64,000 nucleotides of DNA from Sisyra terminalis (Eukaryota; Arthropoda; Insecta; Neuroptera; Sisyridae): the NCBI GenBank assembly GCA_958496175.1, contig OY292274.1:58042630-58106629 (forward strand), given 5' to 3'. Shown piece by piece: positions 10,279-59,781 of the stretch (its first letter is position 1; each line of letters begins with the position of its first letter). The notes under the pieces are model-generated. The model did not search any database and was not told where the DNA came from. It saw nothing but the letters and a program-made list of their open reading frames with translations. A program made the translations under genes and the position numbers.

Positions 10279-10315
10279 CGATACGTGTCGGTCTTTTATT
10301 AGACCTTCATCAGGC
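10279..10315 (-). ncRNA. Hammerhead-like module 1 (left arm)
   Basis: On the minus strand it reads GC, CTGATGA, A, then a 5-bp stem GGTCT/AGACC, then GACACGTAT. The GAAA core box is mutated to GACA, so this copy is probably inactive even if the family is a ribozyme. The stem is perfect here, which shows the ancestral pairing that its partner in the right arm has partly lost. Confidence 0.4.
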
Positions 10316-10815
10316 TTCTAAAATCATACAAACACATGTTTTACAGAATCCTTCAAACATTAGGTACTAATTGTTAAATTACCTTAATATGAACTACACA
10401 ATATACATCACAATAACATCGAAATTTTTTTCTTTATCGCACACATACATTGCAATTTTTTATTTATTTATTTATTTTTTATATTTTAAAATTTATTTAC
10501 ATTAAAATTATTTATAAAATTAGTTAAAATTGTGGTAACTAAACATTTTTAAAAAAGTAACGATACTAAGTGACTTGTTTTTTAAAAAGGTTTAATTACC
10601 ACGATTTTAACTAATTTTATAAATAATTTTAATTTGAATAAATTTTAATATATAAAAATTTTAATTTAAATAAAAAAAATTGTAATGTATGTGTGCGATA
10701 TAGAAAAAAAATTCGATGTTCTTGTGATGTATATTGTGTACTTCATATTAAGATAATTTAACAATTAGTAATGTTTGAAGGACTCTGTAATACATGTGTT
10801 TGTATGATTTTAGAA

Positions 10816-10853
10816 GCCTGATGAAGGTCTAATAAAACACCGAAACGTGTCGC
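10816..10853 (+). ncRNA. Hammerhead-like module 2 (right arm)
   Basis: It reads GC, CTGATGA, A, GGTCT, loop, ACACC, GAAACGTGTC, GC. The flanking GC/GC pair extends after a small bulge into TTTT/AAAA and further pairs, giving a helix I-like stem of about seven additional pairs. The hairpin is imperfect compared with module 1. The core boxes CTGATGA and GAAA are intact. Confidence 0.45.
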
Positions 10854-10924
10854 AAAATTAATAATTAGTACATGGAACTACATCCTTTCATGTCCGCTAT
10901 CCTACTAAAAATAAATAAAATTAT

Positions 10925-13900
10925 GTAAAATATGGACACAACCAATTTATCGATAAATTCACTAGAATTAATTTTATATACAAAAAATTCTCTAAAATTT
11001 ATATATTTAATAAGTTTCAACCGCTTTTTTATCTTTTTATTAATTCACAACATAAAATTTCTTATTTCCTTTTGTTAGAACTTTCTTAATTATTTTAATT
11101 GCTATTTAATTCTGTCGTCATTTTTTCAGTTTTAATAATTACTATAAGAGCTTTTAACGTTTTCATTTCCCTCACTAATTACCACACCTACCAATTGCAC
11201 AGCTTGGTTCTACAACAAACCCATATTTGTTTTTCTTTAATATAAAAATCGAATATGCTTGGTTTTTATATAAAAGAAGGATTAAAATTGTTTCTACTCC
11301 AATATATAGTTTCTTTCAACAAAAGCAGGAAACCCTTACAGAAATATTTTGTACACTTTTCATTCCCTCAAAAATCTACATCTCTGGTTTCGTTAAATAT
11401 GATTTAAAAATTGTAGGTTTTACAGGGTAATTTTTTTATTTGTCTGTTATTTTAAAAATGCTTCTTCACAACAAAATCTTGAAATTATTGACTAAAAGTT
11501 AAAGAGAAGGAAAGTGCTGATGTTAACCGGAGTATTAGAGCTTTTCATCGTGAAAACTAATTGAAACTTACTTCATTTATTCATTTCCTGAAGATAAACA
11601 CCTACAAGACACGCAAATCTCCTTTTATAACTTGAAACACTTGCCACGCTTTTTTTTTATCTTGTTTATTTTTTGCTTATTTAAATCATTCAGCATTTAG
11701 TTAGTTTGATAAAATTTACTATGGAGATTTAATATTTTATGGCTTAACTACTATCATACGAAAAATATGTTGTTTTTCGACAATAAACTAAAAAGGTCAT
11801 AAAATATAAAATCATCTGATTTTGTAGATAATAGAATAATAGGCAAAAAATGATACATATTTGTCTAGTAAAACATATTATTCATGACTTTTGTAATTTG
11901 AAAAGTGTATAAAATAAATTGTTTATGTTCCATCATTCTTGTATAACATATACTTCATACGATTCTAACTTTGGTACTCTCGTTTTCATCATCCAAATCT
12001 ACGAATTAACCTTAAAAATATCAGTTTCCATGTACGATTTCGAATAAAATCGATTTTTGTGTCCGAATAGTAAAACTCGAACAATAAAAATGAAATTTCG
12101 TAATCGCTAAAAATTCAACTCAACATATAAAGTTCTATTTGATATGCTAGATTAGTTCAATGTTGTTTTCAAGTTTTCCTATTGCGCTATTCATTGATGA
12201 TTTATGATGTGTTTTTTTTCCTCGTAAGAATTAACATTTTTGGTTCTCAGTTTTTTATTTGTTGGCCAGATTATTCAATTTTAATTCTTATGTATTTTCT
12301 ACCATTTCTCTGGAAAACATTAATTCTTTGATCATTGCATCAAATTGATTGTATTATTTGTGATTCCAATACAAATAAATACAACCTAATTTATTTTTAG
12401 TGATTGAACTTTAGTATTTTATTTCAAGTAAGCACGAATCTTAACAATTTTTAAGTAGATATTACAAACATTGAATTATATAACATAGATCTTCCAAATT
12501 AAGAAATATCTTTTCAATGTAACAAGAAAATGGATATTTATAAACGTTTTCTTAAAGTACATGTAAGTTTGTTAATATTTCTCAATATTTTTAAAGCTCT
12601 GCTGTAAAATAATTTATCACAATTTTATGTTAATCACCTTTTTTAATTTTATTCACAACAATATACTAAAAATTAAAACTTAGACTACCTCAAATAAACT
12701 TTAGTATATTCTACGTCAAAAAAAAAAATATACTTATAAGTTTATAGTTCATCGATTCTTAAGGGTTTTAAAAGTTATTGAAATAAAAAAGAAGTATTTT
12801 CTTACCTTCTAAAATAGTGACTTTAGAAGAAACAGCATTTTCCATCGATTTCTTGTTTTAACGAATACGCCTTTATCTGCAAAGGAAAATTTACATGAAA
12901 AACACGTTACAAAGATTTTGCTTCATATTTTCAATCAATTGTATCATTTTATGGTTCTAAAATATTTTAGACATTTTGTTATTTTTGATAAACTTGCATT
13001 TGAATTTTTAATTTTCAAACATGAACATTATTTAATATAGACAACTTTTTAAGCCCATAAAAACTTTCTGAATATATATGAGCAATAACTTTCATAAAAC
13101 TTTTGTTTTCAAATTTACTTTAACGTATATTTCCTGTATACTCAAAAATGTGGTCAACGATAATAAAAGATAATATATGTGAATAATTTCATACACATAA
13201 GCTCTTGAAATAATTCTTAGCTTCTAATCGATTTTTGAACCACTAAACTTTTTTACAAATTAATCTTTGGTAGAAAATACTACAAAAATAAAATTTCCAT
13301 TTTTTTAATGAAAAAATAACGAATTCGCTTCTAATGGTTTATAGGTTTATAGGATTCTATAAGACAAAAGTCTTTGCAACCAAAAATTCTATACTTCGGA
13401 GTAAAGATGTGACATTGCTCAAAAAAGCATCAATAGTTTTAAAAAAGAAATATCAATGGTTAAAAAATCGACGTTTATGAACGATATATCGATTTCTTTC
13501 GATGGTTTTTGCCACCATTCAAATATATTTATAAAAAAAAAATCTTTATTTATAACATTATATATATTATCTAAAAATTGTTAAAATTCTGTCAGTTTAT
13601 AATCTAACGTCGTTTGATTAAAATCTAAGCTAACCAAACCTACCACTAGTTGATAATCTAACGCGTTATTTTATAAACTAACGGAATTTATAAATCTACG
13701 CTTGTGACAGAGAAATGTATCTATTAATGTGTGTAGCAGTAATCATAAACGAGGCAAATGGTGGCGCTATAATCAAATATTAAACATAATGAAACGCTAT
13801 ATAATAGTGTGAGTATATGAATAATGAATGAAAGAGGAAGAAGGCAATGCTAAAAATATAAGTTTAACCACACGTAAAACTGAATCAGTCGTTAAATAAA

Positions 13901-14100
13901 AAAACAACATAAAAAAAAGAAACACGGAAAACCAAAGTTTATATAAAGTTGGAACCACAAAGCAGATCTAATAAAAATATGCACAGCAAATATTTTGCTT
14001 TTGCTTTTTTATTGATAACAATTCTTGGTAAAATATGATTCATTTTTACTTTTCGATGCTGTATATTCATTCTTATACGTATAAAAAAATTTTTTTAAAT
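10925..14100. other. 3-kb AT-rich stretch without recognised features
   Basis: Only short ORFs occur, the longest at 11227-11430 (67 codons, plus strand), rich in Phe and Ile and without a recognisable domain. No copy of the window's repeat families is evident. Long A/T homopolymers are frequent. Confidence 0.35.
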
Positions 14101-14105
14101 CAAAT

Positions 14106-15150
14106 TTGATATTAATCAAATATACGATTGGAAGTTCAAACCACAACAATAAGAAACCTACTCTTCCTTAGGATAATTGGGTACCTAGAATCAACCTATC
14201 CCAGGGAAAGGGCTCAGTAGATAATACACAACCACTACTATTTCAAAATACTTTCTTAGAATTGTGAAAGAACTACCTAAAGCACATAATTTATTACACA
14301 GAGGGGTCAGTAATAGATGGGAGATTAGATATGGCAATAGTGAGTAAAAATATGGCAATCAGAAAAAGATTGCCAGAGAGTACCTCCATATTTTCCGCTA
14401 AAATTGAGACTATTCGAATATGTTTGGAAATATTTGAAAAAAGACCAAAAGAACATCCGTCAATCAATTGTACAGATTCATGAGCCTGCCTGAAAGCTCT
14501 TCTTAAGAAAAAGAAAAAAAACACTGCCATTTTAGAACTGCAAAATAAATTCAGAAAACTTTGGACAAATAAGTCTCATGTGGATTCCCGGACATCAAGG
14601 AAAATGAGGCAACGAAAGAGCTGATAAAGAAGCTAGGGAATCTGAGCCAGGAACACACCATTAAAATGACCCAAAATTTATCACAACTTCATTGGAATAA
14701 TACTTGGCGGATAAGACTTCAAGTGTTAAAGATTTAAGGAAAACAATAGTGGAAAGCTCAAAGATTGGCGAAATCACCTGAAAAGAGGAGATAGTTTTGA
14801 ATAGAGTGCAAATCGATCATACGAATCTGACACTTTTCCATAAAATACCTGGAATAACTGAAGGGTGTGATCGATGTGGAACTGAAAAACCAGTGGACCA
14901 TATCTCACTGGAATGCAAAGAAACTGAAGCGGAAAGAACAAGTGGTGTCCCCCGGAAAATAGAAGACTTTTTGTCCATAGAAGGAAGTGTGAAGGCAACC
15001 TTAATGTTTCTTAGGGAAACTAAAAATTTTAAAGATTTATAATCCAGGTACGAGGTGTGATATTACATGGGAAAGTTTAGTTAAGTTTAGACTAAAACAT
15101 GATACGCTAATGACCCTGACAGTTGAAGCAACCGCGACTGTAAATAACTA
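14106..15150 (+). pseudogene. Non-LTR retrotransposon 3' fragment with RNase H domain
   Basis: This is a 5'-truncated ORF2 end. Translating with several stops and shifts gives, in order, a pre-RNase H segment (IIGYLESTYPREGA, about 14170) and an RNase H core. The core shows TEGSVIDGRL (first acidic site, Asp changed to Glu), FSAKIETI, the TDS box and IPGHQGK-GNERADKEA (final Asp kept). After it comes the usual tail LNRVQIDHTNLTLFHKI, then CDRCGTEKPVDHISLEC, a Cys/His cluster typical of I, R1 and jockey-like elements. The open part is 14797-15042. A short 3' untranslated region ends in an A-run near 15150-15161. It is a dead-on-arrival insertion; the clade is not resolved. Confidence 0.8.
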
Positions 15151-15161
15151 AGGAAAAAAAA

Positions 15162-16490: not shown

Positions 16491-16598
16491 TAGTGATATC
16501 AATGATTTTTATATAACCATTTCATCAGCCCAATGTCCGCTATAGTATTTTTTCTTATAGAAACTTCATTGCTCATAGGGACTATGCGTTGTTTACAG

Positions 16599-16817
16599 TT
16601 ACTTGAGGATATTTTTTTCGTGATAGTAAATATTATTTGGACACTCTTCCCAGCTTTGACTTCCTTCTTTCATTTCAGTAATCATTTCTCCAAGAGCTTT
16701 ACGTTGGTTTGCAGCAAGGTTTATAAAATACACAGGTGGCCTCATGGTGGCTACGTGATGGATACGTGACGTATCCAGAAGAAATTCGTACATATCTTCA
16801 GACTGATTCAATTTCAA
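16599..16817 (-). other. Unrecognised 72-codon ORF next to a reverse transcriptase relic
   Basis: The peptide begins MKLNQSEDMYEFLL and contains MRPPVYFINLAANQRKALGE; its composition is unusually non-repetitive for this AT-rich region. It follows the reverse transcriptase relic on the same strand but does not resemble the usual jockey sequence after motif C. It may be a rearranged internal part of the element or an unrelated insertion. I cannot assign it. Confidence 0.25.
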
Positions 16818-17990: not shown

Positions 17991-18022
17991 AATGTTTTTT
18001 TATTATTTATTTATTCCAATGT

Positions 18023-18059
18023 GCAACGTTTCGTCGGTGTAATTCCGACTTCATCAGGC
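18023..18059 (-). ncRNA. Hammerhead-like module 3
   Basis: On the minus strand: GC, CTGATGA, A, perfect stem GTCGG/CCGAC with a 7-base loop, GAAACGTT, GC. Both core boxes and the GC/GC closing pair are intact, so this is one of the best-preserved copies. It is followed outward by GGAATAAATAAATAAT and an A-run, as expected for the 3' end of a retroelement. Confidence 0.5.
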
Positions 18060-18129
18060 AACCTTGAAATATTCATGGTTTATTAAAATAATCATTCTTA
18101 TGATATACTAATTTAGACCTGAAACAATG

Positions 18130-22180: not shown

Positions 22181-23425
22181 AAAATAAAATTTATTGCTCT
22201 TATAATGTATAATATATAAATATTTTTGTTTACAATTCGTTTTTAATTTTAAGTGTGATGTACCTTGCATAAACCATCCAAGCAGCGTCTGTAGATCCTG
22301 ATCTAGGATAGAGATTAGTTTACGATATTGTAGTTGTTTATAGTAGTTGAGGAAAAATAGATGGCAATTTTTAAAAGAGACCCCGAATTGTTTCTGCTTT
22401 CAATTTGTTATAAAACCATATGTCTTATTCTTTTACATTTGTATTTTCTGTATTTGTGGAGTAGGTCATCGAGAATGTAGTCACTGATGCTTCTAATTAT
22501 TTGGCTAGGCCCACTTCTACAATTTGTGTAGAATTTCCGCGACAAAGCGAGAATATATAAATTTAGCGGTAATATATTTAATTCCTCATGAAGGTCGAGT
22601 ACCTTGTATTTGGCTGCCGGCTGGGTAGTTTCCCAGTATTCTTAGTAATTTATTTTGGACTCTTTGTATTGTCAGATACTTGATTTCGCTTACTGAACCC
22701 CAGACTGGACATGCATATGTAAACACTGGTCTGAGCACTGTTTTATAAATTATTAATTTATTGCTGATAAACAGCCTTGATTGTCTATTTAGCAATGGAT
22801 ATAAGATGATAGTTCGGGCCATTAATTTATTTTTAGATAGTTTGATATGTTCAACAAAATTGAGTCTGGAATTCAGTTGCATCCCCAAGTATCTAACTGT
22901 TTTTGCCCATTCTATATTTTTCCCATTTATAAGTACCTTTTTATGCTTGTTGGGTCTACTTCTAGTGAATAGGATAGCTTCAGTTTTGTTATTATTGGCC
23001 ATTATTTTTCATTTTTAAAAAAAATCATTATTCTTTTTAAGGCCTTGGTTAGTTTATTGGCCACTATATCAGCTCTCCAGGAGGATGCAAAAATTGCTGT
23101 ATCGTCAGCATATAGGGAAAAGAAAATTTCGGGTGTCCGCGGGATATCATTTATATATAGTATAAATAGAATAGGTCCCATAATAGACCCTTGAGGGACT
23201 CCAGCCTTAATTATTCTGCTATTTGACATTTCATTTTTGATTTGCAAACAAAATTGGCGCTCTTGGAGATAACTCCATATTATTATTATTATTATAATGT
23301 ATCTTAGAAATTTCATTTTAATTAGTTTGTATATTAGCCCTTCATGCCATAGAGTATCAAAAGCCTTTTCTATGTCAAGTAGAGCCATTCCCGTGTCTAT
23401 AGCCAATCAGCCCCTAGTTTTTTAA
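22180..23425 (-). pseudogene. Jockey-type non-LTR reverse transcriptase relic
   Basis: This is the second half of a non-LTR ORF2, truncated just before motif A. On the minus strand: LLDIEKAFDTLWHEGL is motif A (about 23390); AGVPQGSIMGP-LFILYINDIP is motif B (about 23200); SLYADDTAIFA is motif C with both catalytic Asp kept (about 23110). A shift near 23005 leads into NKTEAILFTRSRP, then RYLGMQLNSRLNF, TYACPVWGS and QRVQNKLLRILGNYPAG. Another shift near 22620 leads to LHEELNILPLNLYILALS-KFY, the family's C-terminus, down to about 22420. A 3' untranslated region runs to roughly 22180. A run of Ile codons (ATT repeat near 23278-23298) interrupts the segment before motif B. Two frame shifts make it inactive. 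Confidence 0.85.
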
Positions 23426-27001: not shown

Positions 27002-27038
27002 GATACGTATTCCGACTACCGAGCAACCATCTTCGGTG
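27002..27038 (-). ncRNA. Hammerhead-like module 4, at the 3' end of a Penelope-like relic
   Basis: On the minus strand: ACCGAAGA, T, a stem GGTTG/TAGTC containing wobble pairs, then GGAATACGTATC. It is a diverged version of the CTGAAGA...GAAACGT module: the first box reads CCGAAGA and the second GGAA. Position and order match the other copies. It lies downstream of a GIY-YIG-like coding relic on the same strand and just before an AATAAG/A-rich tail. Confidence 0.35.

Positions 27039-29488: not shown

Positions 29489-29536
<48 letters not shown>
29489..29536. repeat. (TA)n microsatellite, left of a MITE
   Basis: About 24 TA units. Together with the tract at 30344-30419 it appears to be one original microsatellite split by insertion of the palindromic MITE. 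Confidence 0.95.
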
Positions 29537-29540
<4 letters not shown>

Positions 29541-30338
29541 GGTGATTTTTTTTTGCTCCCATGCCGAAATTTTGTTGGAAATACTTCAAAAAAAATCCCT
29601 GAAAGTTTGAGGTCTTAATATTAATATTAAATACTCGCTCACAGCGTGTGAATATTTTCCATTTAAAATACACGTAAACTTTGATTTTTTTTTAAATTTT
29701 TATAGCTTTGCAGCATTTTATGGTATCGCCTCGCTCAAAGTCGGGATTTTTTTTACAATTGTATGCTCTACAAAAGTGCCTATTTTTAATAATTTTTAAT
29801 AAGGAATAAAAAATCAATATTTTCTTAAATTTTACTCAATAATCCGTAAAAATTTTATAGTAAGAGAAATTCAAGGCTCAATATCTCGAGAAATATCGAT
29901 CTTAGCAATTTGGTTTTCTGGAACTTTTTTGTAGGAAATTAAATTTCCTATAAATTTGCTATTTACATTTTGTCTGTAGGTCTTGTAATTCATGAGTTAC
30001 TGAGAGAAAAACGAGAAATCTATGAAAAATCTAGGTTTAGTGACCCGTACTACCTCGCCCGTGTAAATTTCGATTTTTCCGCAATAGGCACTTTTGTAGA
30101 GCATACAATTGTAAAAAAATCCCGACTTTGAGCGAAGCAATACCATAAAATGCCGCAAAGCTATAAAAATTTAAAAAAAAAGTCAAAGTTTACGTGTATT
30201 TTAAATGGAAAATATTCACACGCTGTGAGTGAGTTCTTAATATTAAGAGCTCAAACTTTCAGGGAATTTTTTTTGAAGTATTTCCAACAAAATTTCGGCA
30301 TGAGAGCAAAAAAAAAATAGTCCCAAAAAAAAAATCAC

Positions 30339-30343
<5 letters not shown>
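29537..30343. mobile_element. Palindromic MITE family D, copy 1, inside a (TA)n tract
   Basis: The arms of about 260 bp are inverted copies: GCTCCCATGCCGAAATTTTG faces its complement near 30295, and GCATACAATTGTAAAAAAAT near 30102 faces the segment near 29750-29772. Ends read TTAGGGTGAT with TA flanks, a Tc1/mariner-like target. Copy 2 lies at 43654-44482. The left end here lacks the GGGACTATTTTTT block seen in copy 2, a small deletion. There is no coding capacity. Its transcript would form a very long hairpin. Confidence 0.9.

Positions 30344-30419
<76 letters not shown>
30344..30419. repeat. (TA)n microsatellite, right of a MITE
   Basis: About 38 TA units directly abut the right end of the palindromic MITE. 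Confidence 0.95.
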
Positions 30420-35270: not shown

Positions 35271-35277
35271 AAATTTT

Positions 35278-36043
35278 GGTATAAGCTTGGATCAGAAACG
35301 TCGAAATTTTCAGAACTGAAGAGAACTATTTCGAATGGTTTCGATATTATTCCTGTACGTACTGTTCACTCGAATGCAATTTGTACGTAAATTTTGACAT
35401 ATACCAGAAATAAAGAAGCGACGGTTATTTTCAACTATGTATTATCAAATATCAATAACAGAACATAAAAATTAAACAGTTCAATAATTCGACAATAAAT
35501 ATAACCTAAGTATATTGTTCATTTCGCAAATGTTTTGGAGTTTCCTTTCATTAATAATAATACATCACAGTTTTTCACAAGTGTTTTTCCCATAAAAAAG
35601 TAAACTTTATTTAGAAAATTTGGTTCAAGTCCATTTTACCACACCCACAATCTGGCAACGTTACATTTTCGACTATGTTTTCAATTTAAATCGTGGTTAA
35701 ATCGGTCCATAATAAAAATTTAGCCACAAAAGAAATAATTATACCATATTAGAATTAAATTAACAAAAATATCGCGAATTGAATTGAAAACAAAGTCGAA
35801 AATGCAACGTTGCCTGATTGTGAGGGTGCTTAAATTGACTTGAGCCGAAAATTTAATTTTACATATTACAATATAAATATATATATTTGAAAATAACCGT
35901 CGCTTCTTCATTTCCGGCATATGTCAAAGTTTATGTACAAATTGCATTCGAGTGAACAATACGTACAGGAATAATTACGAAACCATTCGAAATAGTTCTC
36001 TTCAGTTCTGAAAATCTCGACGTTCCTGATTCAAGCTTATACC
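35278..36043. mobile_element. MITE family A, copy 2, hosting MITE family B
   Basis: Ends GGTATAAGCTTGGATCAGAA and its diverged complement. It is 766 bp, longer than copies 1 and 3, because it keeps an internal segment they lack and carries a complete family B MITE at 35622-35846. Relative to copies 1 and 3 the interior is in reverse orientation. Flanks share AATTTT but not a clean 8-bp duplication, so this copy is older or was altered at one end. Confidence 0.85.
35622..35846. mobile_element. MITE family B, copy 1 (8-bp TSD GAAAATTT), nested
   Basis: Ends GGTTCAAGTCC and, reversed, GGCTCAAGTCAA; the arms mirror each other through CACACCCACAATCTGGCAAC. An exact duplication GAAAATTT is present at 35614-35621 and 35847-35854. 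The uninterrupted counterpart AAATTTTC survives in copies 1 and 3 of the host MITE (5861-5868 and 62952-62959), which proves the insertion. It is a nearly perfect fold-back of 225 bp. Confidence 0.92.
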
Positions 36044-36555
36044 AATTTTTTTAATAAACAATGATGAACCCTTTATTAGATGACATATTTTACAATGTGA
36101 AGGATGTATGAGGATGTGGTAGGCCAAATCAAATTTTATTTGGTCTATATATTTTATTTGGATATATTCTTCACATTATACATCGATTTAGGTCTGAAAG
36201 AATGGAAATATCTCTCAATGGTTTGAATTTTCATTTAAAAATATTTAGTACGAAGTTCAAATGCATGATAAGTAGATAATCTGTGTTTTAAAAAACGCAT
36301 GAAAATTCATTGAAAATACGTATGTTATGCTCAGCACGAGATAAGATTTAATCTCGAGGATAAATGTCTAAATATCGATAACTAGGAAATTGCAACATTT
36401 CTTAAAGATTAATCCCAAAAATCCTCAAAATCGCTATCATAAAGATCGGTGAAAGAAAGAGTACGCAATGATCTTAAAGGAACTCATTAAATAAGAAGAC
36501 AATTCAGGTTGTTTAAGATCGGTTTTTTATTTAATATTTTTTAATATTCAAATTA

Positions 36556-36590
36556 GATACGTTTCGTTACGTAACGTAACTTCATTAGGC
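36556..36590 (-). ncRNA. Hammerhead-like module 5
   Basis: On the minus strand: GC, CTAATGA (G changed to A in the box), A, perfect stem GTTAC/GTAAC with a 5-base loop, GAAACGTA, TC. The stem sequence differs from other families but still pairs fully. Confidence 0.45.
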
Positions 36591-36761
36591 TTCTTGAACC
36601 ACAAAAATATAATAGTTAATATAATAATTAAAAATATAATAATTTAAATTCAATAAATAAAAATGTTTTTTGTGACAAAGTCCTATGAAACAATACTTCG
36701 CAAATAAATTAAGACAACTGATATATTTTTAGAAATCTTTTATCTCATAATATAAATAAAA

Positions 36762-36796
36762 GCCTGATGAAATTATGATACGTAACGAAACGTACC
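36762..36796 (+). ncRNA. Hammerhead-like module 6
   Basis: GC, CTGATGA, A, ATTAT, loop, GTAAC, GAAACGTA, CC. The boxes are intact but the hairpin arm on the 5' side is decayed compared with its partner at 36556-36590. Confidence 0.4.
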
Positions 36797-36866
36797 TAAT
36801 TTGAATATTAAAAAATATTTAGTAAAAAAAACCGATCTTAAACAACATGAATTGTCAGCTTATTTA

Positions 36867-37966
36867 ATAGAAGCTGAGATCTGAATTTTATCATCTATTA
36901 TGGAACTTATTAATTTAAAATTCGATGTAGATTGGTGTTTTTTATTTGTCTGATTTAATTTGATAAATTCAGTATGATATAATTTCCGGGAATATATTCT
37001 TAGATTAAAAGTTATACATATATTTCAATTTAACACTATTGTCATTTTCTATTTTAACAGTTATGGAAATTTATTTTTAGAAAAACAAAGTTTGTTTTGA
37101 GAACTTTTTACTTCAAGAGATGGCAATGTATTGGAATAAAACGTTACGATAAATTTTCAAGTATTATTCATGTGGCTTTTTTGAAATATAAAACAGCGCT
37201 TTAATACGACAGAAATCTAAAATAACAATAAATCAAGGATCCATTTTAAGACACTCGTAAATAGAATTTTATAAATATGCTATTTTGCATTTATAAAATA
37301 CGTATCTCTTGAAATGATTTGTGGCGACAAAAAACGAAAGCTCTTTTTCAAACATGAAGAATAGAGTCTGCATACTGTAGATAGACAGTATACAAACAAA
37401 CTGTTTCTAATAAAATCTAAATAAATCAAGCTACTTCAGTAAGACTATTATGTTACATAGTAATAGTATGATTTCAAAATTAAAATGTAGACACATAAAA
37501 AAGAAGATACAAGCAATGAATTTCTACGAGTCTGGAATATAAAAATGTTATTATTCCAATGTCATTTCCTTTATATAAAATTTATACACATTTGTGTATT
37601 GGTCTAACATCTCTCATCAACTTTTACCAGAGTTCATATCCGAGTCACTTGTAGCATGAGACAGTTGCATTATGTAAGAGTTGAATATAATGGAGATATG
37701 AAAAATAGCAGTGAAAAAGTTTAGATTCATGTCATCGTCAATGTTTCAACAGCATAAAAGGTTATTCAATAGAAATGTCCTGTACACTTCTAAGTTGAAT
37801 TGATGAACTTATTGAAGATAAACTCCATTTGTGATACAATAAATTTTAACGATACAATTCAATGCACTTTAAACTTTCAATTCACAAAAATATGATGGAT
37901 AGACGAAATTTGCACTTTTCTATTGAAAAGTGCAATAAAAACCTTTCAACAAAACTCTTTATTAAG
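36867..37966. other. AT-rich spacer, nothing recognised
   Basis: No ORF over 60 codons, repeat copy or motif identified. Confidence 0.3.
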
Positions 37967-43653: not shown

Positions 43654-44482
43654 TTAGGGTGATTTTTTTTGGGACTATTTTTTTTTGCTCCCATGTCGAA
43701 ATTTTGTTGGAAATACTTCAAAAAAAAATTCCCTGAAAGTTTGAGCTCTTAATATTAATATTAAGTACTCGTTCACAGCGTGTGAATATTTTCCATTTAA
43801 AATACACGTAGACTTTGATTTTTTTTTTAAATTTTTATAGTTCAGCGGCATTTTATGGTATCGCCTCGCTCAAAGTCGGGATTTTTTTACAATTGTATGC
43901 TCTACAAAAGTGCCTATTTTTAATAATTTTTAATAAGGAATAAAAAATCAATATTTTCTTAAATTTTACTCAATAATGCGTAAAAATTTTATAGTAAGAG
44001 AAATTCAAGGCTCAATATCTCGAGAAATATCGATCTTAGCAATTTGGTTTTCTGGAACTTTTTTGTAGGAAATTAAATTTCCTATAAATTTGCTATTTAC
44101 ATTTTTTCTGTAGGTCTTGTAATTCATGAGTTACTGAGAGAAAAACGAGAAATCTATGAAAAATCTAGGTTTAGTGACCCGTACTACCTCGCCCGTGTAA
44201 ATAACGATTTTGCCGCAATAGGCACTTTTGTAGAGCATACAATTGTTAAAAAAATCCGACTTTGAGCGAGGTGGTACCATAAAATGCCGCTGAACTATAA
44301 AAATTTAAAAAAAAAAGTCAAACTTTACGTGTATTTTAAATGGAAAATATTCACACGCTGTGAACGAGTACTTAATATTAATATTAAGAGCTCAAACTTT
44401 CAGGGAATTTTTTTTGAAGTATTTCCAACAAAATTTCGGCATGGGAGCAAAAAAAAATAGTCCCAAAAAAAAATCGCCCTAA
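43654..44482. mobile_element. Palindromic MITE family D, copy 2
   Basis: It is nearly identical to the element at 29537-30343, in the same orientation. Ends TTAGGGTGATTTTTTTTGGG and its complement, flanked by TA (43652-43653 and 44483-44484). Arms of about 270 bp pair almost perfectly; the unique centre is about 280 bp. High similarity between the two copies, including the centre, points to recent spread. There is no coding capacity. Confidence 0.9.
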
Positions 44483-48400: not shown

Positions 48401-50250
48401 ACATAAATGCCTTATTTTAGTTCTTTTTGGTTTATTTAAGTTGTATTTTCATAATGTATAAATTAAAGTTTAAATGAAAGTATATGTTTTATAATCCACG
48501 ATTTGCAGACAATTTGACAAACTCAATTTAACATTTCATAATTTGAATCTTTTCGAAATTTTATTTAGAAAAAAACATTAACTTCTGACTATAAATTTTG
48601 ATGATAGGCGATTAAGTCGAAAGTTTGGTACAGGTCTGCCAATTTTATTGCACTTAAAGAAAAATCAATTTCATTCAACTATCAAGCTTTCATTTTATCC
48701 ATGTATATTGTGTATACAATATTCTTAAAATACACATTGCGTTAAAGTCACATTAAAATTTTATGAAACAAACATTACATTGTACTGTGCCAAAAAGAAA
48801 ACACTCGAATAAAAGTTTTACGAGAGGAAACTTTTGACATTTGTTTAATTAAAATCACATTCCGTGCATTTCCAATTAAAAAACATAACACTTACAAATC
48901 AAATTCCAATCGCCACCATCATATTTAAATCGGATAATTTATTAAACAAACACTGTAAAAAATTTATGTACTTTTGATGTTTTTTAATTGAAAATTCTTC
49001 CTTACAGTGTGTATAGCCCATATTTATTTTTCTGTAAGTGGAATGTATCGGAATAAAAGTTTGGTTCAGTGAAAATGCCATTGTTGAGGCAAGAAAATTT
49101 TAAAAATGTGTCGCTGTATTGGGTGTTATAAATTTTAAAACGATTTTGAAATTTATCAAATTGAAGTTGGGAAAATTTCAACAAGGGAAAATAAAAATGA
49201 AATGGTTCAAAGTTGGAAGCAACATTTTCCGTATATAGTGTAAACCCATTCCAATACATGTGTATTCAATGTAGTTTTGGAAAAGCGTTATATATGTCAG
49301 GAAAATCATTTCTCCCTTGACATCTGACAGTTTTGTCGCCTTCTCGTTAATTCATGTATATTCTTCTGACGCAACTTCATCGTTTCCCTTCATATGCCAC
49401 ATACAAACACCCTCGTTCCACACCCCGTTTTATTAAAATTTATGAAAAAAATATTCAAATTAAATGTGGGATTTCGAAAAATATCTACGGTTAGTATGTT
49501 AAGTATTAACAATTTTTTTTTTTTGGGATCTGCGATAAATGCATTACAGAAATAAACAAAGCCAAGGGAAGCATATACCTCAGATCTACAATCAAAACTC
49601 GGAAGTCCTGATTAGGTACATGTAACTTAAGCTTCCGTTTATTAGTTAATTTATTTGAGTCACAGCTCAAACAGCAGAGATAAGATAATCTTCATTTCCC
49701 TAACAGCAATTACATTTGTTTCATTGAATCTTCTAAAATGTAACGAACGTTTCTCCAATTTCTACAAAAGTCTTATTTATGTTACTCCGCGTATCTTGCA
49801 ACCAAATACGTTTCATCTTACTCCCTGATTGTTACAAGTAATCGAAAACACAATGGGAAATAATTCAATCAGGTATTGTCTTACAAAATTATTAGCCTTG
49901 TACAAAGATAATACCAAGCATTTTTGTCAAACGTTTAAATTTTATAAAATCATGTTATACAAATCAGACACCAAATTTCTTGTTAATTTCAGGGATGCAA
50001 TCAAAAATTTATTTTACAACAATAAACGTTAGATTGTTAGATTACACAACCACAGGGAAACGTAGAACTATTGGTAACGAATAAAAGTACCGAAGTATTG
50101 TTATCAACAAAAGACCTAATACCAATACATTTTATATTTTAAAAAAATGAAAATGGGATACTTGGGAAAAAAAAATGGATAAAAAACTCAGAAAACTATC
50201 ACCACTAAGAATCCTTATCTTGTTGAAATAAAATATTTTAATAATTTTTA
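48401..50250. other. AT-rich spacer, nothing recognised
   Basis: Short ORFs at 48899-49081, 49002-49259 (minus) and 49829-50032 (plus) have no domain signature or shared repeats. Confidence 0.3.
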
Positions 50251-50539
50251 AATAAGAAGAAAATTCAGGTTATTTAAGATCTTTGTGTTTTTTATTTTTT
50301 ATTTAATATTTTTATTATTCAATTAGCTACTATATTATTATAGTTTTGAAATTGGAATTTTGAAAAAAAAAATTATTGATTTTTTTCATGTATTTTAAAA
50401 CTTCATTATTAATAATATTGATATTTAATGCAAAAAAACTTAAAAAAAAAAATTTCAATTAATTATAAACGATTAAAAATTGATAAAATTTAAAAAAAAA
50501 TCACGTGGCTATAAACGCGCCATGAGTGCTCACTATAGT

Positions 50540-50963
50540 TGTGACGTCATAATGTTATAGCTATTTAATAACAGTACAGCATTTACAGCTATTACACGTG
50601 ACTAGACAATAATATTGAAAATTTATTGCTAAAAAACGATTCGTTAGTTGATTCCAATTAGCTATGTGTGATAAAGGATTTATAAAGGCAAAAATATAAA
50701 AATTTATAATGGGTTTCACTGCTTGAGACCATTTATTTCGACGTTTGCCATCTTGGGGAACATTTAAAAACATTTTGTTAGGAGTTGTTTTTGTAGTATT
50801 CGTACATAATCGTACAAAACAAGAACGATAACTTTTAAGAATCGACATTTTCTATATAAATTTCAATATTTAACTATCACAACATAATTAAATCAATCAA
50901 AACACTGTACTTATTATTTCTGTATCAACTGCAATGAGTGACAACTAACATTATGACGTCACA
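50540..50963. mobile_element. Possible P-like transposon fossil bounded by 18-bp inverted repeats
   Basis: TGTGACGTCATAATGTTA at 50540-50557 recurs exactly reversed at 50946-50963, enclosing the THAP ORF and its putative 5' leader. The repeats contain the palindrome TGACGTCA. No 8-bp target duplication is found directly outside, so they may be internal repeats or paired regulatory sites (CRE-like) instead of element ends. Confidence 0.35.
50561..50848 (-). pseudogene. THAP-domain N-terminal coding fragment
   Basis: The ORF begins with a THAP-like zinc-finger start: YRSCFVRLCTNTT (C-x4-C), PNKMFLNVPQDGKRRNKWSQAV (the hydrophobic block, basic residues and the invariant Trp of the domain). The THAP domain is a sequence-specific C2CH DNA-binding fold found in P-element transposases and many animal proteins. 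After about 45 residues the similarity ends at GCAGTGAAA, a plausible weak splice donor, and the rest of the ORF looks like untranslated DNA. The C-terminal Cys-x2-His half and AVPTIF-like box are absent. It could be exon 1 of a gene or of a P-like transposon. No further exon is recognised upstream of 50561. Confidence 0.5.
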
Positions 50964-51188
50964 CGCGCTCGAGTTTGTTCGGGAGTTGTCGGCGTGTCTT
51001 CGGTACTAGCTTCAAAAATTAATTTTTATTTTGAAATAACTTTTAAATTATTGCGAAAAAAGAACAAAAAATAGTTTTGCTATCAAACTTATATATGATC
51101 TTTCCATTTATCACAGAAATTTTTTTTTTCACAAACCCAATTTATGTATGATTGACATATTTTGTAATTATTTTAATTTGTTATAGAA

Positions 51189-51223
51189 GCCTGAGGAAGT
51201 TACGATTAGTAACGAAACGTAGC
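51189..51223 (+). ncRNA. Hammerhead-like module 7
   Basis: GC, CTGAGGA, A, perfect stem GTTAC/GTAAC with a 5-base loop, GAAACGTA, GC. Both boxes, the closing GC/GC pair and the hairpin are intact, and the base after ACGT is A, as allowed at a hammerhead cleavage site (not G). Confidence 0.5.
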
Positions 51224-51299
51224 TAATTAAATAAGAAAAATATTAAATTAAAAATAAAAAACAAAAAAATCTTAAATAACCTGAATTGTCTTCTTATTA

Positions 51300-52138
51300 A
51301 AAAAATATAAAAGCTGAGATCTGAATTTTATCATCTATATTTTAATAAGGTACCCAACCATCTTAAAACACTTAATTTTTAGCGAAAGCAATTGAGGAAA
51401 ATATTAATAAGCACAATGCGTAATTTGAGTGGCTAGTCATTTACATAATTTTCAATTAAATTGTTTTATTTACTTTATTGGTAAATTTGTTTTAACTTGG
51501 TAACTTTTAATTTTATTGCTCTGATTTAAGTATATGCAATTGTACAATGCACTAAATTACAATTGTAATATTCCAGTTCTATGTACATATGCTTTGCATC
51601 TCTATAGAATGTATACTGGAAGTAAAATAAATAAATAAATAAAAATCATGGATTAAATTCTACAAAAACAGTTAATTCAAAAATTTACAATGTAAAAACG
51701 TTTCTATATTAAGAAATGGTCAAAAACAAATGTAAAACAAAGCGATTTCTCTTAAACATTGTTTTCATCAATGTGTTACCTTTATATTAAGAAGATAATG
51801 GGAAAAGAAAAACAAAAAGTTTTTACTTAAATTGTTCAATGAAAATTTGAATTGGCTGTTTGTAAGCCATTGTTAGCTTTTAAATACTATTAGCAATTTG
51901 TTAATACATTCCTTGCAACCGGAAGACAAACGTTTATTGTATTCAAAACATCCCTTAAAGGAAAGAATGTAATTGTTTAAGGGGTGCGTCTTGTTTTACG
52001 TCTAATTAACTAACTTTAGGGTTCCATTTATCCTAATGTCAGAACTCTTATTAAATAACTCTTGTTCCTGTCTATTATACAAACTAATTATGAAAATTAT
52101 GAGTTCATTTTATAGATTGATACATGCTCCGAGGACTA
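51300..52138. other. AT-rich spacer with a (TAAA)n tract
   Basis: AATAAATAAATAAATAAAA lies at about 51627-51646, at the end of a stretch that may be a retroelement tail. Nothing else is recognised. Confidence 0.3.
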
Positions 52139-52176
52139 GAATCAAAAATAATCGGTTAAAACTTTATTTATTACAT

Positions 52177-52213
52177 GCGACGTTTCGGTTGCTTTATTGA
52201 GCCTTCCTCAGTA
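52177..52213 (-). ncRNA. Hammerhead-like module 8
   Basis: On the minus strand: TA, CTGAGGA, A, GGCTC, loop, GCAACC, GAAACGTC, GC. The boxes are intact but the 3' stem strand no longer pairs well, unlike its partner at 52369. Confidence 0.4.
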
Positions 52214-52368
52214 AATTTTTAACTGATTTTTTTTAATTATTATTTTTTATTGATTTTTTTTATATATCTTGGAAGTTTTATTATTTTTTTTACCAACTGT
52301 ACCGTGTCTACAAAAATGAATTATGACAACGATAATTATTAACAAAGTTAAAACGATATTTTACGAAC

Positions 52369-52405
52369 GCCTGAGGAAGGCTCAATAAAGGAGTCGAAAC
52401 GTTGC
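52369..52405 (+). ncRNA. Hammerhead-like module 9
   Basis: GC, CTGAGGA, A, stem GGCTC/GAGTC (one G-U pair), GAAACGTT, GC. Both boxes and the closing pair are intact; the stem sequence differs from all other families but pairs. Confidence 0.5.
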
Positions 52406-52442
52406 ATGTAATAAATAAAGTTTTAACCAATTATTTTTGATC

Positions 52443-52860
52443 CTAATCTTCTGAATATGTTATCAATCTATTATCATTGAGGATCTGAAGGTTTACAATA
52501 AGTTCATTTTTTATTGAAAATATAAGAAATATCCTTACTAATTTGACTGCCAAAAACCAAGTGCATTGGGTTGAATTGCGGGTCATGAAGGGCCATACTG
52601 GGGAACGAAAAGATAAATGTTTTTCCTCGTCGAGGAATGGTGACACTATTTGTTAGTCTAAAACTGTCAAAGAATGGCTTTTTACGATATTGTGCTCTTT
52701 TGGAGCAAAACCAAGGGGTAAAAACATAGCAAAAAATTGGTGAGAAATCCTTCTCAAAATTGAACTACTGATACACTAAATTTAAACCCAAATTGAAGAC
52801 ATGTCTCATAATTGATCACTAGAGTCTAAGAAAGCATAATTGGTTACTGAAATACGTATG
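52443..52860. other. Spacer, nothing recognised
   Basis: A 67-codon minus-strand ORF at 52443-52646 has weak resemblance to a mariner-type MDETWLHH region by composition only; no motif supports a call. Confidence 0.25.
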
Positions 52861-55283: not shown

Positions 55284-55584
55284 TATTAGATGTTCCGGAA
55301 AGTCATTTCGTTTTTTGTAATATACAATTAAAGCACAAAACTTTATTACAACTTTGTAATTTAAATCAATAAAATAGTAATCTGCTTCAATAGTATCAAT
55401 GTTTTGACATCTAGCCTGCAAATTTTGAATACCAAATTAGTTAAAATCAATAGATAACTGAAGAAAAAATCAAAAAATTTCATTTTGAACATTACTAAAG
55501 CGTTCAATCTTTAACCATTTAGTAAATGTTGTAACGATTGATAAAAATAGAAATTCGATGGAATAATTTTGGACAATTATAGTA

Positions 55585-56480
55585 TAGGGTGGGTCATATA
55601 TTTTTTTTTATTTTCAAATGCTACAAAATTAAAACTAATGAATATTTTTTCGTTCTGATTTTTTTATTTGAAAGTTCCATCCTTGCGTCTAATTGTGAAA
55701 TACAACATCATTCATATGGCTGCCATGGCTAGCCATACAGTAGCTCATTCGTTCAGTCCAATTTTTCAATACATTTTCGATGGTATGCGGCAAAATTTCG
55801 CCAATGGCGACACGAATATTCTCCTTGAGGGCATCAATCGTGGCTGGCTTGTTGGCATAACACTTGTCTTTGACGGCACCCCAAAGATAAAAGTCTAATG
55901 GTGTCAAATCGCAGCTTCTTGGTGGCCAAACGACATCAGCATTTCGGCTGATAATGCGATTTTGGAACACAGTACGCAAAAGATCAATTGTAACGTTGCT
56001 TGTGTGGCATGTAGCGCCGTCCTGCTGAAACCAAATGTCGCCCAAGTCATATTTTTCGATTTCTGGAAACAAAAATTCGTAACGGCGGCTCCTGCCTCAT
56101 TTTCAAAGGAAAATGGGCCAATGATGCCGCCAGACCAAAATCCACAACAAACCGTCACTCTCCGAGGATGCATCGGCTTCTCTTCGATCACATGCGGGTT
56201 CTCCGTGCCCCAAAAACGACAATTTTGCCTTTTTACATACCCGCCAAGGTGGAAATGCGCTTCATCTGAAAAGATGATTTTTCGGCCAAAATCGACATCC
56301 TCTGGACCCATTTTCAAAGTATGTTTTCAATATTTCAAAGCGTTCTTTAAGCGTATACCCAACCATTTTCGTTCAGCGCAAACAATAAACTAATTTTCTG
56401 TCAAAAGCGAAATGACATTAGTGTTACCATTCACGAGATAAATGGTAGTTGAAAAAGAAAACGCTAGATAGCCCACCCTA
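55585..56480 (-). mobile_element. Rosa-like mariner (DD41D), internally deleted, nested in a MITE
   Basis: Terminal repeats TAGGGTGGG at both ends with a TA duplication (55583-55584 and 56481-56482). The family C copy near 24810 shows the uninterrupted flank (ACAATTATAGTGGGTACGGC), supporting the boundaries. It is 896 bp long, where full elements are about 1.3 kb. The missing part encodes most of the DNA-binding domain. Confidence 0.9.
55689..56366 (-). pseudogene. Rosa-like mariner transposase pseudogene (DD41D)
   Basis: The start MVGYTLKERFEILKTYFENG is followed after a deletion and frame change by DVDFGRKIIFSDEAHFHLGG (first catalytic Asp in SDEAHF), then a block ending VTVCCGFWSGGIIGPFSFEN. 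A second shift near 56070 leads to FPEIEKYDLGDIWFQQDGATC (second Asp) and WPPRSCDLTPLDFYLWG (third Asp), ending MASHGSHMNDVVFHN. There are 41 residues between the second and third Asp, the spacing of the rosa group. All three catalytic residues survive, but the helix-turn-helix DNA-binding region is deleted and two frame breaks exist, so no working enzyme is made. Confidence 0.9.
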
Positions 56481-56699
56481 TAGTTAGGCAATGTCATTCC
56501 CCTTTGTTAATTTATTAGGTTTTTTCCAGAGGTTTTCTTCTGCAGAAGAGTCTTACATTATCGTGTTGCAGCATAGAAGTTAATAAGTCACTCTAATCAT
56601 AAAATATTATAAGTACAACTTTAAAATAATAAATCAATAGAAAAATGGCAATTCAATGACTAGATTTAAAAACGAAATTACTTTCCGGTACACCTGGTA

Positions 56700-58590
56700 C
56701 ATAAATAATTTTTGAATTTTCTCTACTTAGATTAAAACGCGCGTATTTTTTACAAATTTTACCCACTTTACATTGCTTTTTGGCTTTTTTAACATGCATT
56801 TTTCTTAATAAATTAATGAAAAGATTCAATATTAATTATTACATAGTACACCTTAAAGTGCCATATCAAATAAATCTTTTAAGTCAGGCAAATAGGACAA
56901 ACATATTAGTACTTTTTGTTAAGCAAATATTATATTTGTTGTAAGCACTAACCAAACTTAAAACTATTAAATTTATATTAAAAAAAACCTTCCTTAAAAC
57001 TCAATTTTTGGGCTTTTTTTTCGATGTGCGTCATTAAATAATGAATATCTTAATGAAATAATCTAATTTCCAATTTGCCCAATCCCAAATTTAAAAATAT
57101 AATGACAAAAACTTTTTGGTGTATCAACGGAAGAATAAAATATCAATAACATAGTTTATTGAGATTTCATCCGCTAATTTTATATCCAAACAAAAATTGA
57201 AAAATATATGAATTAGGTACACTTGCATAAATTATTCAAATAAGAACTAAACGATGTAATAACGTTATAGTAAAACCAATATCCAAAAAGTGAGACACTA
57301 TTATTATTATGATGAAACTATTATGGGAAACAAGAAAAGAAAAGAATTTATAACTCTCAAAGTAAATTGTAAAGTAAAATAAATATCTTTCAGATGGTTT
57401 TCCCTGATTATTTCAATGGCAATTTTATTTATTATTACCTTAACTTACGGAAATCGTTGTTTACTTTTTTCTACAACTTCCCCAATATAAATAAATACAC
57501 ATACCCTTGTATCTGCAATGTTTCGCTTCCAGATCTATTCTAGTCAACGTATTGTGTTCTGTTATTATTTTACCTCTAAATAAAGTTAGTTCAATTTTAC
57601 TCAACAAATTCGATCATCTTTATTTTATTCTATTTCTAGCATTCACCTCGTTCACATTCTTTTTCGTTCTTTCGCATTATTTATTTTATTTTTCGCAACG
57701 TATGTACATATTTTTCACGAACAATAGCTGAAGGAAGTGATTAAATTGGATCATTTAATTTATAACTCAAATGTAATATCTTCAGAATCAATAAACAACC
57801 CACATCTGTACATAATTTCAGATGTAACGTTTTTCGAGCTGTAAATTGCAATTGTTCGCCAAATTGTATAGATTTAATAATAAAATCTGCAATTTTAATT
57901 TTATTAGTTCACACAAAAGCAATGTAATGATTTGAGATTATGTAAATGCAAACGTTAGGCTTTTACGATATTTATTACTTTCCTATAATTTAATGAAACC
58001 GTTGTTAAAATAACAATGATGAAGTCAACATTCTTGTGCTGTTTTATGTTTCAATAACATAACGGAGCTTAGATAAATAGTTTTGTTTGTTATTCAATGC
58101 GCTTCATTGCAAACTGCAGACTTGGGAGTTTTGAATCTAACACAGAATCGATAAAATCGTTTAAAAATTATCATTTTTACAACATCGCAGATTTCTTTGG
58201 CTTAGTAGTCGCGACAATCTGACACAAAAAAACCAAACCTTCGAGAAAATATGAAAAGTGAGTTGAGATAAAGTTTTTTGCATTTGGGTCGGAAAAATAA
58301 TTATAAAACAAGTTACCAAATTTTATTCTATCCAATCGGATTATTGAATTTGTGCCGCAAAAGTTTTTTTTTTTGGAATTCTTATGAAATAATAAATTAT
58401 ATCTCATTTTTAGGTCCTATTAGATCGTGAATATCAGGTTCATGGATTTTCAAGATATTCTTAAGGTCCCAGGAACCCCCATCATCTAAAATCTTTATCA
58501 AAATAAGCCCTTTAGAACGTTAGGAGTAAGGGTTAAAAATTCTTGTATAAACGTTCTTAAGTCTCCACATAGAACACGGAGCTTAAGAAT
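56700..58590. other. AT-rich spacer, nothing recognised
   Basis: A 74-codon hydrophobic ORF at 57507-57731 and a 76-codon ORF at 58177-58407 (minus) have no signature. A small inverted motif TATTCTTAAG occurs at 58458 and, reversed, near 58583. Confidence 0.3.
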
Positions 58591-58592
58591 AC

Positions 58593-58942
58593 TTTTTGTT
58601 ACGACTGCTTCTAAAGTTGAACTTTCGTGCGTTGTGTGGCGGGGGTAAAGAGCCGTTTTCTCATCGTGGTGGCAAGCGTACGCGAAAGTAGAGAAATCGT
58701 GCGCAAAAGTAAATAACAGTGCGCAAAAGTAAAATAAATTGATACCTAAATAAACTTTAATAAGAAATAATTCATATAGGTAATTATTTAGACTAAGATA
58801 GTTTAAACTAAAATGTTGTTTTTATTCATAATTTTTCGATAAATTATTCTTACTATAGAGTTGAAATTTTTCATATATAAATAACAATAATTAATTTCTC
58901 AATCTGTTTCTGTTGAACTTTAGAAGCAGTCGTTACAAAAAA
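58593..58942. mobile_element. MITE-like element with ~28-bp terminal inverted repeats
   Basis: TTTTTGTTACGACTGCTTCT on the left mirrors AGAAGCAGTCGTTACAAAAA on the right (one mismatch), the repeat continuing into AAAGTTGAAC. The left interior is GC-richer and contains repeated GCGCAAAAGTA units (58701, 58721). No target duplication resolved; no coding capacity. Confidence 0.72.
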
Positions 58943-58949
58943 TTTTATT

Positions 58950-59167
58950 CGATACTTATGCTTAAAGTGAGGTACCTAGTAGGACGAAATTGAGACACTT
59001 GCTAAAGCGCTGATCATACACAACGAGATCGAGTACGCCTACCCCCACTCGTCTGGCGGCCTCGTGGGGTTACACAGCGCACTCGATCTGGTTGTGTACG
59101 ATCAGTCCCTTCAGCTCGTGCATCAATTTCATCCTACTAGAAAACCTCACTTTACGCATATGTATCG
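58950..59167. repeat. GC-rich 218-bp hairpin
   Basis: CGATACTTATGCTTAAAGTG is mirrored at the right end (CACTTTACGCATATGTATCG), and the pairing continues through CTAGTAGGA-GAAATTGA, CTGATC-TACACAAC-AGATCGAGT to a loop near 59060 (CCCACTCGTCTGGCGG). The two arms of about 105 bp are about 85 percent complementary. Its base composition is much richer in G and C than the surrounding DNA. No ORF. Confidence 0.85.
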
Positions 59168-59412
59168 AAAATAACAATTCTTTCTTTTTAGTAATCAGCG
59201 ATCCGCAGCCCATTAATATGTGTTGTTAGCTAATTTTAGGAGAAATTTAACAAACATTCCAGGATATAAGTTTATGCCTCCCCTAAAACACAATGGGTGA
59301 ACTTCTCTTTCTTCTGAATTTCCACACTGAATTTGGGTATATCATCATTTATAATAATTAAATTGTGGCCAATAAGGACGAAGCTTCTTGTGGAATCTTA
59401 TTTATTTCATCG

Positions 59413-59448
59413 CCAACGTTTCGTCAGTTATTCCTGACTTCTTCAGGG
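59413..59448 (-). ncRNA. Hammerhead-like module 10
   Basis: On the minus strand: CC, CTGAAGA, A, perfect stem GTCAG/CTGAC with a 6-base loop, GAAACGTT, GG. The closing pair is CC/GG here and GC/GC elsewhere, a compensatory change. Confidence 0.5.
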
Positions 59449-59745
59449 TTCAAAATTTAAAAATTACTCCACAAATGTAATAAAAATAAGCTGTAAAATG
59501 GCCCAACTGGTAGAACAACAGGCCAAGAATACAATTTGGTATTGATAAATAAAAAATTGTTTAAAAAACATTATTGAAAAAACGCAAACAAAAATTAAAA
59601 TAAAAATAAAACAAAAATAAAACACATGTTTTTTAAACAATTTTTTATTTATCAATACCGAATTGTATTCTTGGTCTGTTCTACCAGTTGGGTCTCTTTA
59701 CAGCTTATTTTTTTGACATTTGTGGATTAATTTTTAAATTTTGAG

Positions 59746-59781
59746 CCCTGAAGAAGTCAGGAATAACTGACGAAAAGTTGG
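59746..59781 (+). ncRNA. Hammerhead-like module 11
   Basis: CC, CTGAAGA, A, perfect stem GTCAG/CTGAC, GAAAAGTT, GG. Only the C after GAAA is changed to A, which breaks the ACGT palindrome. Confidence 0.45.

Follow-up and report, generated by a model that had tools for sequence, protein, structure and literature searches.

We analysed a 64-kb stretch of DNA from the neuropteran Sisyra terminalis (contig OY292274.1), referred to here as the window, that carries ten copies of a hammerhead-like RNA motif. Read from their sequence, these are very probably hammerhead ribozymes of the minimal type I form that belongs to the pseudo-long terminal repeats (pLTRs) of Penelope-like elements (PLEs), carried here mostly by short PLE derivatives that have no long open reading frame (ORF) and are built of two head-to-head arms. 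The evidence consists of the motif and its covariation, its copy number, the inverted arms, the flanking target-site duplications, the one-sided tails, and the existence of spliced copies. Both the ribozyme and the retroelement are of known kinds; the unusual features are the many copies in compact foldback form and a ribozyme located at a splice junction. Fetched sequence stretches outside the window are given as L-numbers (e.g. L141).

A preliminary description of this DNA had listed eleven copies, each with a CTGANGA box, one extra base, a 5-bp hairpin (stem II) and GAAACGT. Ten of these sites bear the motif: on the minus strand near 10279, 18023, 36556, 52177 and 59413, and on the plus strand at 10816, 36762, 51189, 52369 and 59746. 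The eleventh site, at 27002, has no CTGANGA and is missed by a covariance model made from the ten confirmed copies; the best match of this model in the window beyond those ten has an E-value of 1.2 and lies elsewhere. Both core boxes are intact in eight of the ten copies, the left 10-kb copy having GACA and the left 36-kb copy CTAATGA, and the copy at 59746 reads GAAAAGT with its GAAA kept. The hairpin claimed for every copy is fully paired in seven (one with a G-U pair) and broken in the copies at 10816 and 36762 and in the left copy at 52 kb. The extra base before helix II is present in all ten and is always A. The proposal that stem II changes in sequence while pairing is kept was borne out, as four of its five pairs change on both sides and 92.7% of its cells are paired. 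So was the shift of the helix I closing pair from GC/GC to CC/GG, which is found in the 59-kb family.

Covariation was assessed on the ten window copies and one outside sequence against 500 shuffles. Over the whole structure 87.0% of the cells are paired versus 60.3% in the shuffles, and 22 cells are changed on both sides versus 8.1; neither value is reached in any shuffle (0/500 each). Two further measures are less striking, namely the number of pairs with a change on both sides (5 versus 4.1, reached by 164 of the 500 shuffles) and of further pair types (11 versus 8.4, reached by 47 of 500). Under a strict descriptor, which demands CTGANGA, at most one extra base, a stem of 4 bp or more and GAAA, the window has five sites, whereas 100 first-order Markov windows contain 0.1 on average and never more than 1. 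The loose pattern CTGANGAN{6,30}GAAACGT has 4,940 + 4,960 = 9,900 matches in the 377-Mb genome (11 contigs) versus 78 + 176 = 254 for the reversed pattern. A few of the first 100 genome places listed are plainly non-hammerhead; these are stemless, and one such sequence occurs three times. The earlier view that the copies derive from hammerhead RNAs appears sound, backed by the covariation, the genome-wide excess and the same architecture inside a PLE. The Rfam hammerhead models, which had been put forward as a check, call no family in the window at E-values up to 1, and none in the surroundings of the 59746 copy at E-values up to 10. The copy in the outside PLE scores 16.7 bits against Rfam Hammerhead_HH9, for which the gathering score is 52.

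Minimal type I hammerheads of PLEs were reportedly described by Cervera and de la Pena in 2014 and by Lunse, Weinberg and Breaker in 2017. The copies studied here share with that class the CUGANGA/GAAA core, one open helix I, a helix III that is missing or nearly so, the pLTR location and the proposed cleavage as a dimer. They differ in that the element here consists of two arms placed head to head and lacks a long ORF, and in that an intron abuts the core in several families. Helix I is open and brackets the core, and its inner pairs (GC/GC or CC/GG) are paired in 72.7% of the cells. Long helix I folds are found in L148, L171, L188, the outside PLE and the right 52-kb copy, whose outer helix I is GTTAAAAC/GTTTTAAC; other copies, e.g. 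L193 and the minus copy of L141, have alternative folds. There is no closed helix III with a loop, only ACGU or, in the GGTCT family, ACGUGU, and the motif is therefore a minimal variant and not a canonical hammerhead. Judged by these features, it falls in the class of minimal type I hammerheads known from PLEs, in which helix III is not closed. The extra base and the short helix III had been called non-standard; both were already known from the literature. In the text available from three papers, minimal type I hammerheads that lack helix III sit in the pLTRs of PLEs and may cleave as dimers, and their role is given as unknown (PMC7761336, PMC7229834, PMC6155905). An unpaired A after A9 is reported, in the accessible part of another paper, for the plus-strand hammerhead of the chrysanthemum chlorotic mottle viroid (PMC3705267). 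The extra A here likewise lies unpaired directly after A9 and before helix II, whereas that hammerhead belongs to a viroid and the present ribozyme to a retroelement.

The preliminary description had missed the context of the copies, most of which form the arms of inverted retrocopies that have a tail and are flanked by target duplications. In the window, nine of the ten copies fall within five inverted-repeat elements and the 18-kb copy is solitary (Table 1). The genomic neighbour and pair counts that follow rest on the first 100 places listed, of about 9,900. Neighbours less than 700 bp apart are arranged -/+ in 19 cases and +/- in two, and never lie on the same strand; one same-strand pair, of different families, is 704 bp apart. 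An inverted-repeat alignment spans the whole element in 18 of the 19 -/+ pairs (72-98% identity, spans of 279-685 bp), only a 52-nt piece being called in L154, and extends over the full length in four of the five window elements, the exception being the 51-kb element with its short arms. The centre is unpaired in several elements, such as L151, L156, L157, L158 and those at 36 and 52 kb. With flank windows that were fixed after the first cases had been seen, a duplication plus a one-sided tail is found in 19 of 24 elements (the 19 genomic pairs and the five window elements), compared with 57 of 552 mismatched left/right flank pairs. The duplications are 10-16 bp long, some with one mismatch, and a tail of 20-45 nt lies on one side with none on the other (left in five and right in 14 of the 19 elements). 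The sequence ATGGAY occurs about 80-100 nt below the hammerhead in L164, L166, L179 and L182, as expected if the tail reaches the ORF start. Of 40 solitary places fetched, 39 were parsed, and 19 of these have an inverted partner that the pattern had missed and three have another arrangement. The remaining place, L191, lay outside the position rule and was also left out of the arm-similarity, splice-state, fold and helix I analyses. Its hammerhead arm, taken with a flank from 40 nt upstream to 115 nt downstream, appears identical with the plus arm of L152 some 15 kb away, which would suit a duplication of the insertion along with its surroundings.

Three families include copies with a GT...AG intron and others with a clean exon junction at one and the same position. 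The intron is present in L154 and L157 and the junction in L193 and the right 52-kb arm (GGCTC family); the left 10-kb arm keeps the intron and L141, L145 and L172 have the junction (GGTCT family); and in the GTCAG family the intron is found in L196 and the junction in the 59-kb arms. The intron-keeping form of the GTTAC family ends in TATAG before AAGCC. This intron is less certain, as its upstream junction is seen in L174 only, where the 5' site is AT and not GT. A fixed rule applied to four families classed 48 of 63 copies as spliced, 10 as intron-keeping and five as unclear; L191, two decayed window arms that remained unmatched and copies of other families were left out, and L185 and L186 were removed from the GTTAC class. 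Precisely spliced copies indicate an RNA intermediate, and spliced inverted copies argue for sense RNA as the template of both arms.

The same ribozyme architecture is found in a PLE outside this genome. The outside matches listed for the pattern comprise 15 viral stretches and at least 117 genome stretches, and among these 132 a stem of at least five pairs is present in four. Two of the four lie on contig LJHE01000041 (L077 and L078), which contains two tandem units that each open with the hammerhead (CTGATGA-A-GACCC..GGGTC-GAAACGTT, with helix I GCGC/GCGC and an outer helix). The hammerhead is followed by a 616-aa ORF without a Pfam match and then by a 765-aa ORF that scores 29.2 bits for RVT_1, just below the cut-off of 29.6, and 28.2 bits for GIY-YIG, above the cut-off of 22.6. 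Judged from these domains, the units are a PLE with a reverse transcriptase (RT) and a GIY-YIG endonuclease. A model trained on the window ranks the two sites top with 31.8 bits, the next scoring 26.6 (95 of the 132 listed pattern loci). The viral contigs were scanned for relatives of the PLE protein and none was confirmed. The LJHE01000041 record is labelled as single-cell Epulopiscium, and the contig is most likely animal DNA within a bacterial assembly.

The mechanism that we propose would start from a sense RNA that spans exon 1, the hammerhead and the beginning of the ORF region and in some cases includes the intron. The RT and GIY-YIG endonuclease of a PLE would act on this template in trans; the use of a PLE enzyme by these elements is something that we infer. 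Synthesis of complementary DNA (cDNA) would begin about 100 nt downstream of the ribozyme, giving one end its tail of about 30 nt. The inverted arm would come from a second cDNA or from snap-back of the first, and the target duplication would flank the product. The elements have pLTR-like arms paired head to head, with the hammerheads reading outward. The available text on Penelope elements describes inverted pLTRs, duplications of 8-10 bp and, on one of the inverted pLTRs, a 31-bp tail that is optional (PMC3846280), and according to part of a further paper the tail corresponds to the segment that separates two RT start sites in PAc (PMC11167929). The Penelope elements of the rotifer Adineta vaga have in common with those here the head-to-head inverted pLTRs, the short duplications and the one-sided tail of about 31 bp, as well as unrelated sequence framed by pLTRs and the keeping of introns. 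They differ in their very low copy number, compared with thousands of hammerhead copies here, and the word hammerhead is absent from the portion of that paper available (PMC3846280). In the same portion, an antisense template is considered highly compatible with intron retention and a sense template is left open, whereas the spliced copies here point to sense templates.

Whether one or two template RNAs are used per insertion can be approached through the arms. The two arms are nearest each other, rather than any other copy, at 11 of 21 loci. Among the 10 loci where this is not so, L153 and L154 are not true pairs, and the arms of L189, L198 and L199 share private variants by eye. None of 17 classifiable pairs (15 by rule; the 10-kb element and L181 partly by eye) mixes a spliced with an unspliced arm. 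Arm similarity and the absence of mixed splice states make one RNA, or one source locus, the commoner case, and two template RNAs as a general rule are disfavoured. Snap-back synthesis is as good a model. In L156 the arms belong to two subfamilies and are flanked by an exact 12-bp duplication, and a two-template event is possible there.

Cleavage is predicted at the 3' side of the H base next to ACGU. Within a single copy, helix III is limited to two zero-loop base pairs, and efficient cleavage would therefore most likely need two RNAs. ACGU is self-complementary in most copies, and two RNAs could pair through it with four pairs between the molecules. Action as a dimer is thus the likeliest mode of cleavage, in line with the literature cited above. 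Because the transcript of an inverted element contains one sense and one antisense copy, the dimer would have to be intermolecular, and in such transcripts the ribozyme may be masked by the antisense arm. We infer both cleavage and dimer formation from the sequence. The ends of the arms were considered as a genomic trace of cleavage, since the left arm of the 51-kb element stops 3 nt from the predicted site. Two other truncated arms (L176 and L182) stop elsewhere, and we make no claim on this basis.

C3 of the core follows the 3' splice site at a distance of 4-5 nt, and exon 1 supplies the outer strand of helix I. Several spliced copies fold with a long interrupted helix I that includes exon 1 and other spliced copies do not. 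With their own exon 1, 43 spliced copies have a helix I probability of 0.58; it is 0.21 when the exon comes from another family and 0.22 when exons are shuffled, and the 10 copies that keep the intron have 0.19. The own exon gives the highest value in each of four families, and the small p-values for this comparison are inflated because the copies are related. In a fresh set, the spliced copies L202 and L204 have values of 0.92 and 0.82, and L200, with an exon junction by eye and a mutated helix I, has 0.00. The script had counted five spliced copies at 0.78-0.92 in this set, three of which had already been used (L212 twice and L215 minus). The intron-keeping copies of the fresh set have 0.72 and 0.19 by rule and, where the splice-site rule had missed them and they were recognized by eye, 0.72 (L205), 0.33 (L207) and 0.96 (L208). 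These values weaken the idea of a splicing switch. That exon 1 would be the natural partner strand of helix I is fairly well supported by the folding models. A role for splicing as the on-switch of the ribozyme is weakly supported, and the fresh copies gave no clean support. It also seems unlikely that the ribozyme is assembled by the spliceosome, the intron splitting the 5' strand of helix I so that the full hammerhead exists only in spliced RNA. If this were true, the element would be cut only after splicing, and ACGU pairing of two spliced RNAs could bring together the templates of the cDNAs of both arms. A literature search that did not reach the key hammerhead and PLE papers returned nothing on a ribozyme at a splice junction; the arrangement suggests a cheap test of ribozyme control.

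Several results weigh against assigning the copies to PLE derivatives. No PLE protein was found in the window by tblastn (best E-value 9.8). The 67 fetched genome stretches L133-L199 contain only a weak endonuclease-like remnant, at L199:2138-2263, which resembles the start of the Penelope endonuclease (NCIYYLLCKIC...; E-value 0.017), and 18 further genome stretches gave nothing better than 1.6. The outside loci were chosen by pattern and are a biased set, and the window matches of the covariance model are circular, as it was built from the same copies. Five of the 24 elements (L145, L149, L151, L154 and L159) fail the rule for a duplication plus tail, and 17 of the 39 parsed solitary copies have no inverted partner, so that inversion is not universal.

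Other explanations have some of the same evidence on their side. The arms could be terminal inverted repeats of a DNA transposon or miniature inverted-repeat transposable element, moved by a transposase with the hammerhead as a passenger. The shortness of the elements, their lack of a long ORF, the inverted arms and the target duplications would all fit, and fragments of mariner-type transposases are present in the window. However, the ends are asymmetrical, with the tail of about 30 nt on only one of them, the central junction varies within a family (hammerhead spacing ranges from 76 to 472 bp in 11 GTTAC-family pairs), and many copies have lost the intron precisely, which needs RNA; we consider this explanation extremely unlikely. 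Metazoan non-LTR (long terminal repeat) retrozymes, which are small circular RNAs from tandem type I hammerheads, also have a type I hammerhead in a small, non-coding unit of low GC content, and PLEs are proposed, in the part of the source available, to mobilise them (PMC7761336). They are described, in the text available, as short direct tandem repeats of 150-450 bp (PMC7229834), whereas in the first 100 places listed here neighbours less than 700 bp apart are never on the same strand. The inverted arms would give one ribozyme and one antisense copy per transcript, from which no monomer would be excised, and a retrozyme origin is very unlikely.

Finally, the motif could owe its conservation to a role in RNA recognition or dimerisation that serves the PLE enzyme, self-cleavage being weak or irrelevant. 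The self-complementarity of ACGU in most copies would suit such a role, and the presence of both core boxes beside varying stems in thousands of copies speaks against it. The search pattern itself requires the core, so conserved boxes are no proof of selection for cleavage. We regard this explanation as rather unlikely, and favour minimal PLE hammerheads in which the core would serve for cleavage.

Table 1. Hammerhead copies and the elements that carry them in the window
Feature	Position	Strand	Remarks
10-kb foldback element	10207..10924		head-to-head inverted arms, intron retained in both
Hammerhead, 10-kb left arm	10275..10317	-	GAAA decayed to GACA
Hammerhead, 10-kb right arm	10814..10856	+	core intact, stem II broken
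Retained GT-AG intron, 10-kb left arm	10318..10382	-	65 nt; 3' splice site directly before AAGCCTGATG
Right-arm copy of 10-kb intron	10753..10813	+	61 nt; 5' splice site AT not GT (first base A)
10-kb target-site duplication, left	10200..10215	+	15/16 match; overlaps arm end
10-kb target-site duplication, right	10961..10976	+	one-sided tail 10925-10960
Hammerhead, solitary	18018..18061	-	core and stem II intact
36-kb foldback element	36486..36868		arms 71% identical, centre unpaired
36-kb target-site duplications	36479-36490 / 36902-36913		11/12; tail 36869-36901
Hammerhead, 36-kb left arm	36551..36592	-	CTAATGA (mutated core)
Hammerhead, 36-kb right arm	36760..36801	+	stem II partly broken
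51-kb element	50237..51312		about 1.1 kb; inverted end arms of 94 nt, only the right one with a hammerhead
51-kb target-site duplications	50233-50244 / 51337-51348		12/12; tail 51313-51336
Hammerhead, 51-kb right arm	51187..51228	+	intact; 3'-splice-site-like TTATAG ends 51186
52-kb foldback element	52112..52471		arms 70% identical, centre unpaired, right arm spliced
52-kb target-site duplications	52102-52111 / 52501-52510		10/10; tail 52472-52500
Hammerhead, 52-kb left arm	52172..52215	-	stem II decayed
Hammerhead, 52-kb right arm	52367..52410	+	core and stem II intact (one G-U)
59-kb foldback element	59350..59844		both arms in spliced form
59-kb target-site duplications	59341-59352 / 59875-59886		12/12; tail 59845-59874
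Hammerhead, 59-kb left arm	59408..59450	-	core and stem II intact, helix I CC/GG
Hammerhead, 59-kb right arm	59744..59786	+	GAAAAGT for GAAACGT

Additional repeats are present in the window. An AT-rich foldback family without a hammerhead occurs at 5685-6111, 35271-36050, 60247-60485 and 62776-63203. Three sub-threshold Rfam microRNA matches (MIR7533, MIR6140 and MIR530) at AT-rich foldbacks look like an artefact of the inverted repeats, and one Rfam small nucleolar RNA match near 59746 was set aside as chance. Two further foldback copies, at 29530-30401 and 43663-44473, share a 300-nt stretch that is 99% alike, and the first of them lies beside long TA runs. A broken mariner-type transposase (HTH_48, Transposase_1) is located at 1690-2785, and a piece of another at 55692-56326 was recognized from its peptide and has no Pfam match. 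A reverse transcriptase fragment (RVT_1) is found at 23005-23406 on the minus strand, adjoined by an ORF at 22589-23008 without a Pfam match.

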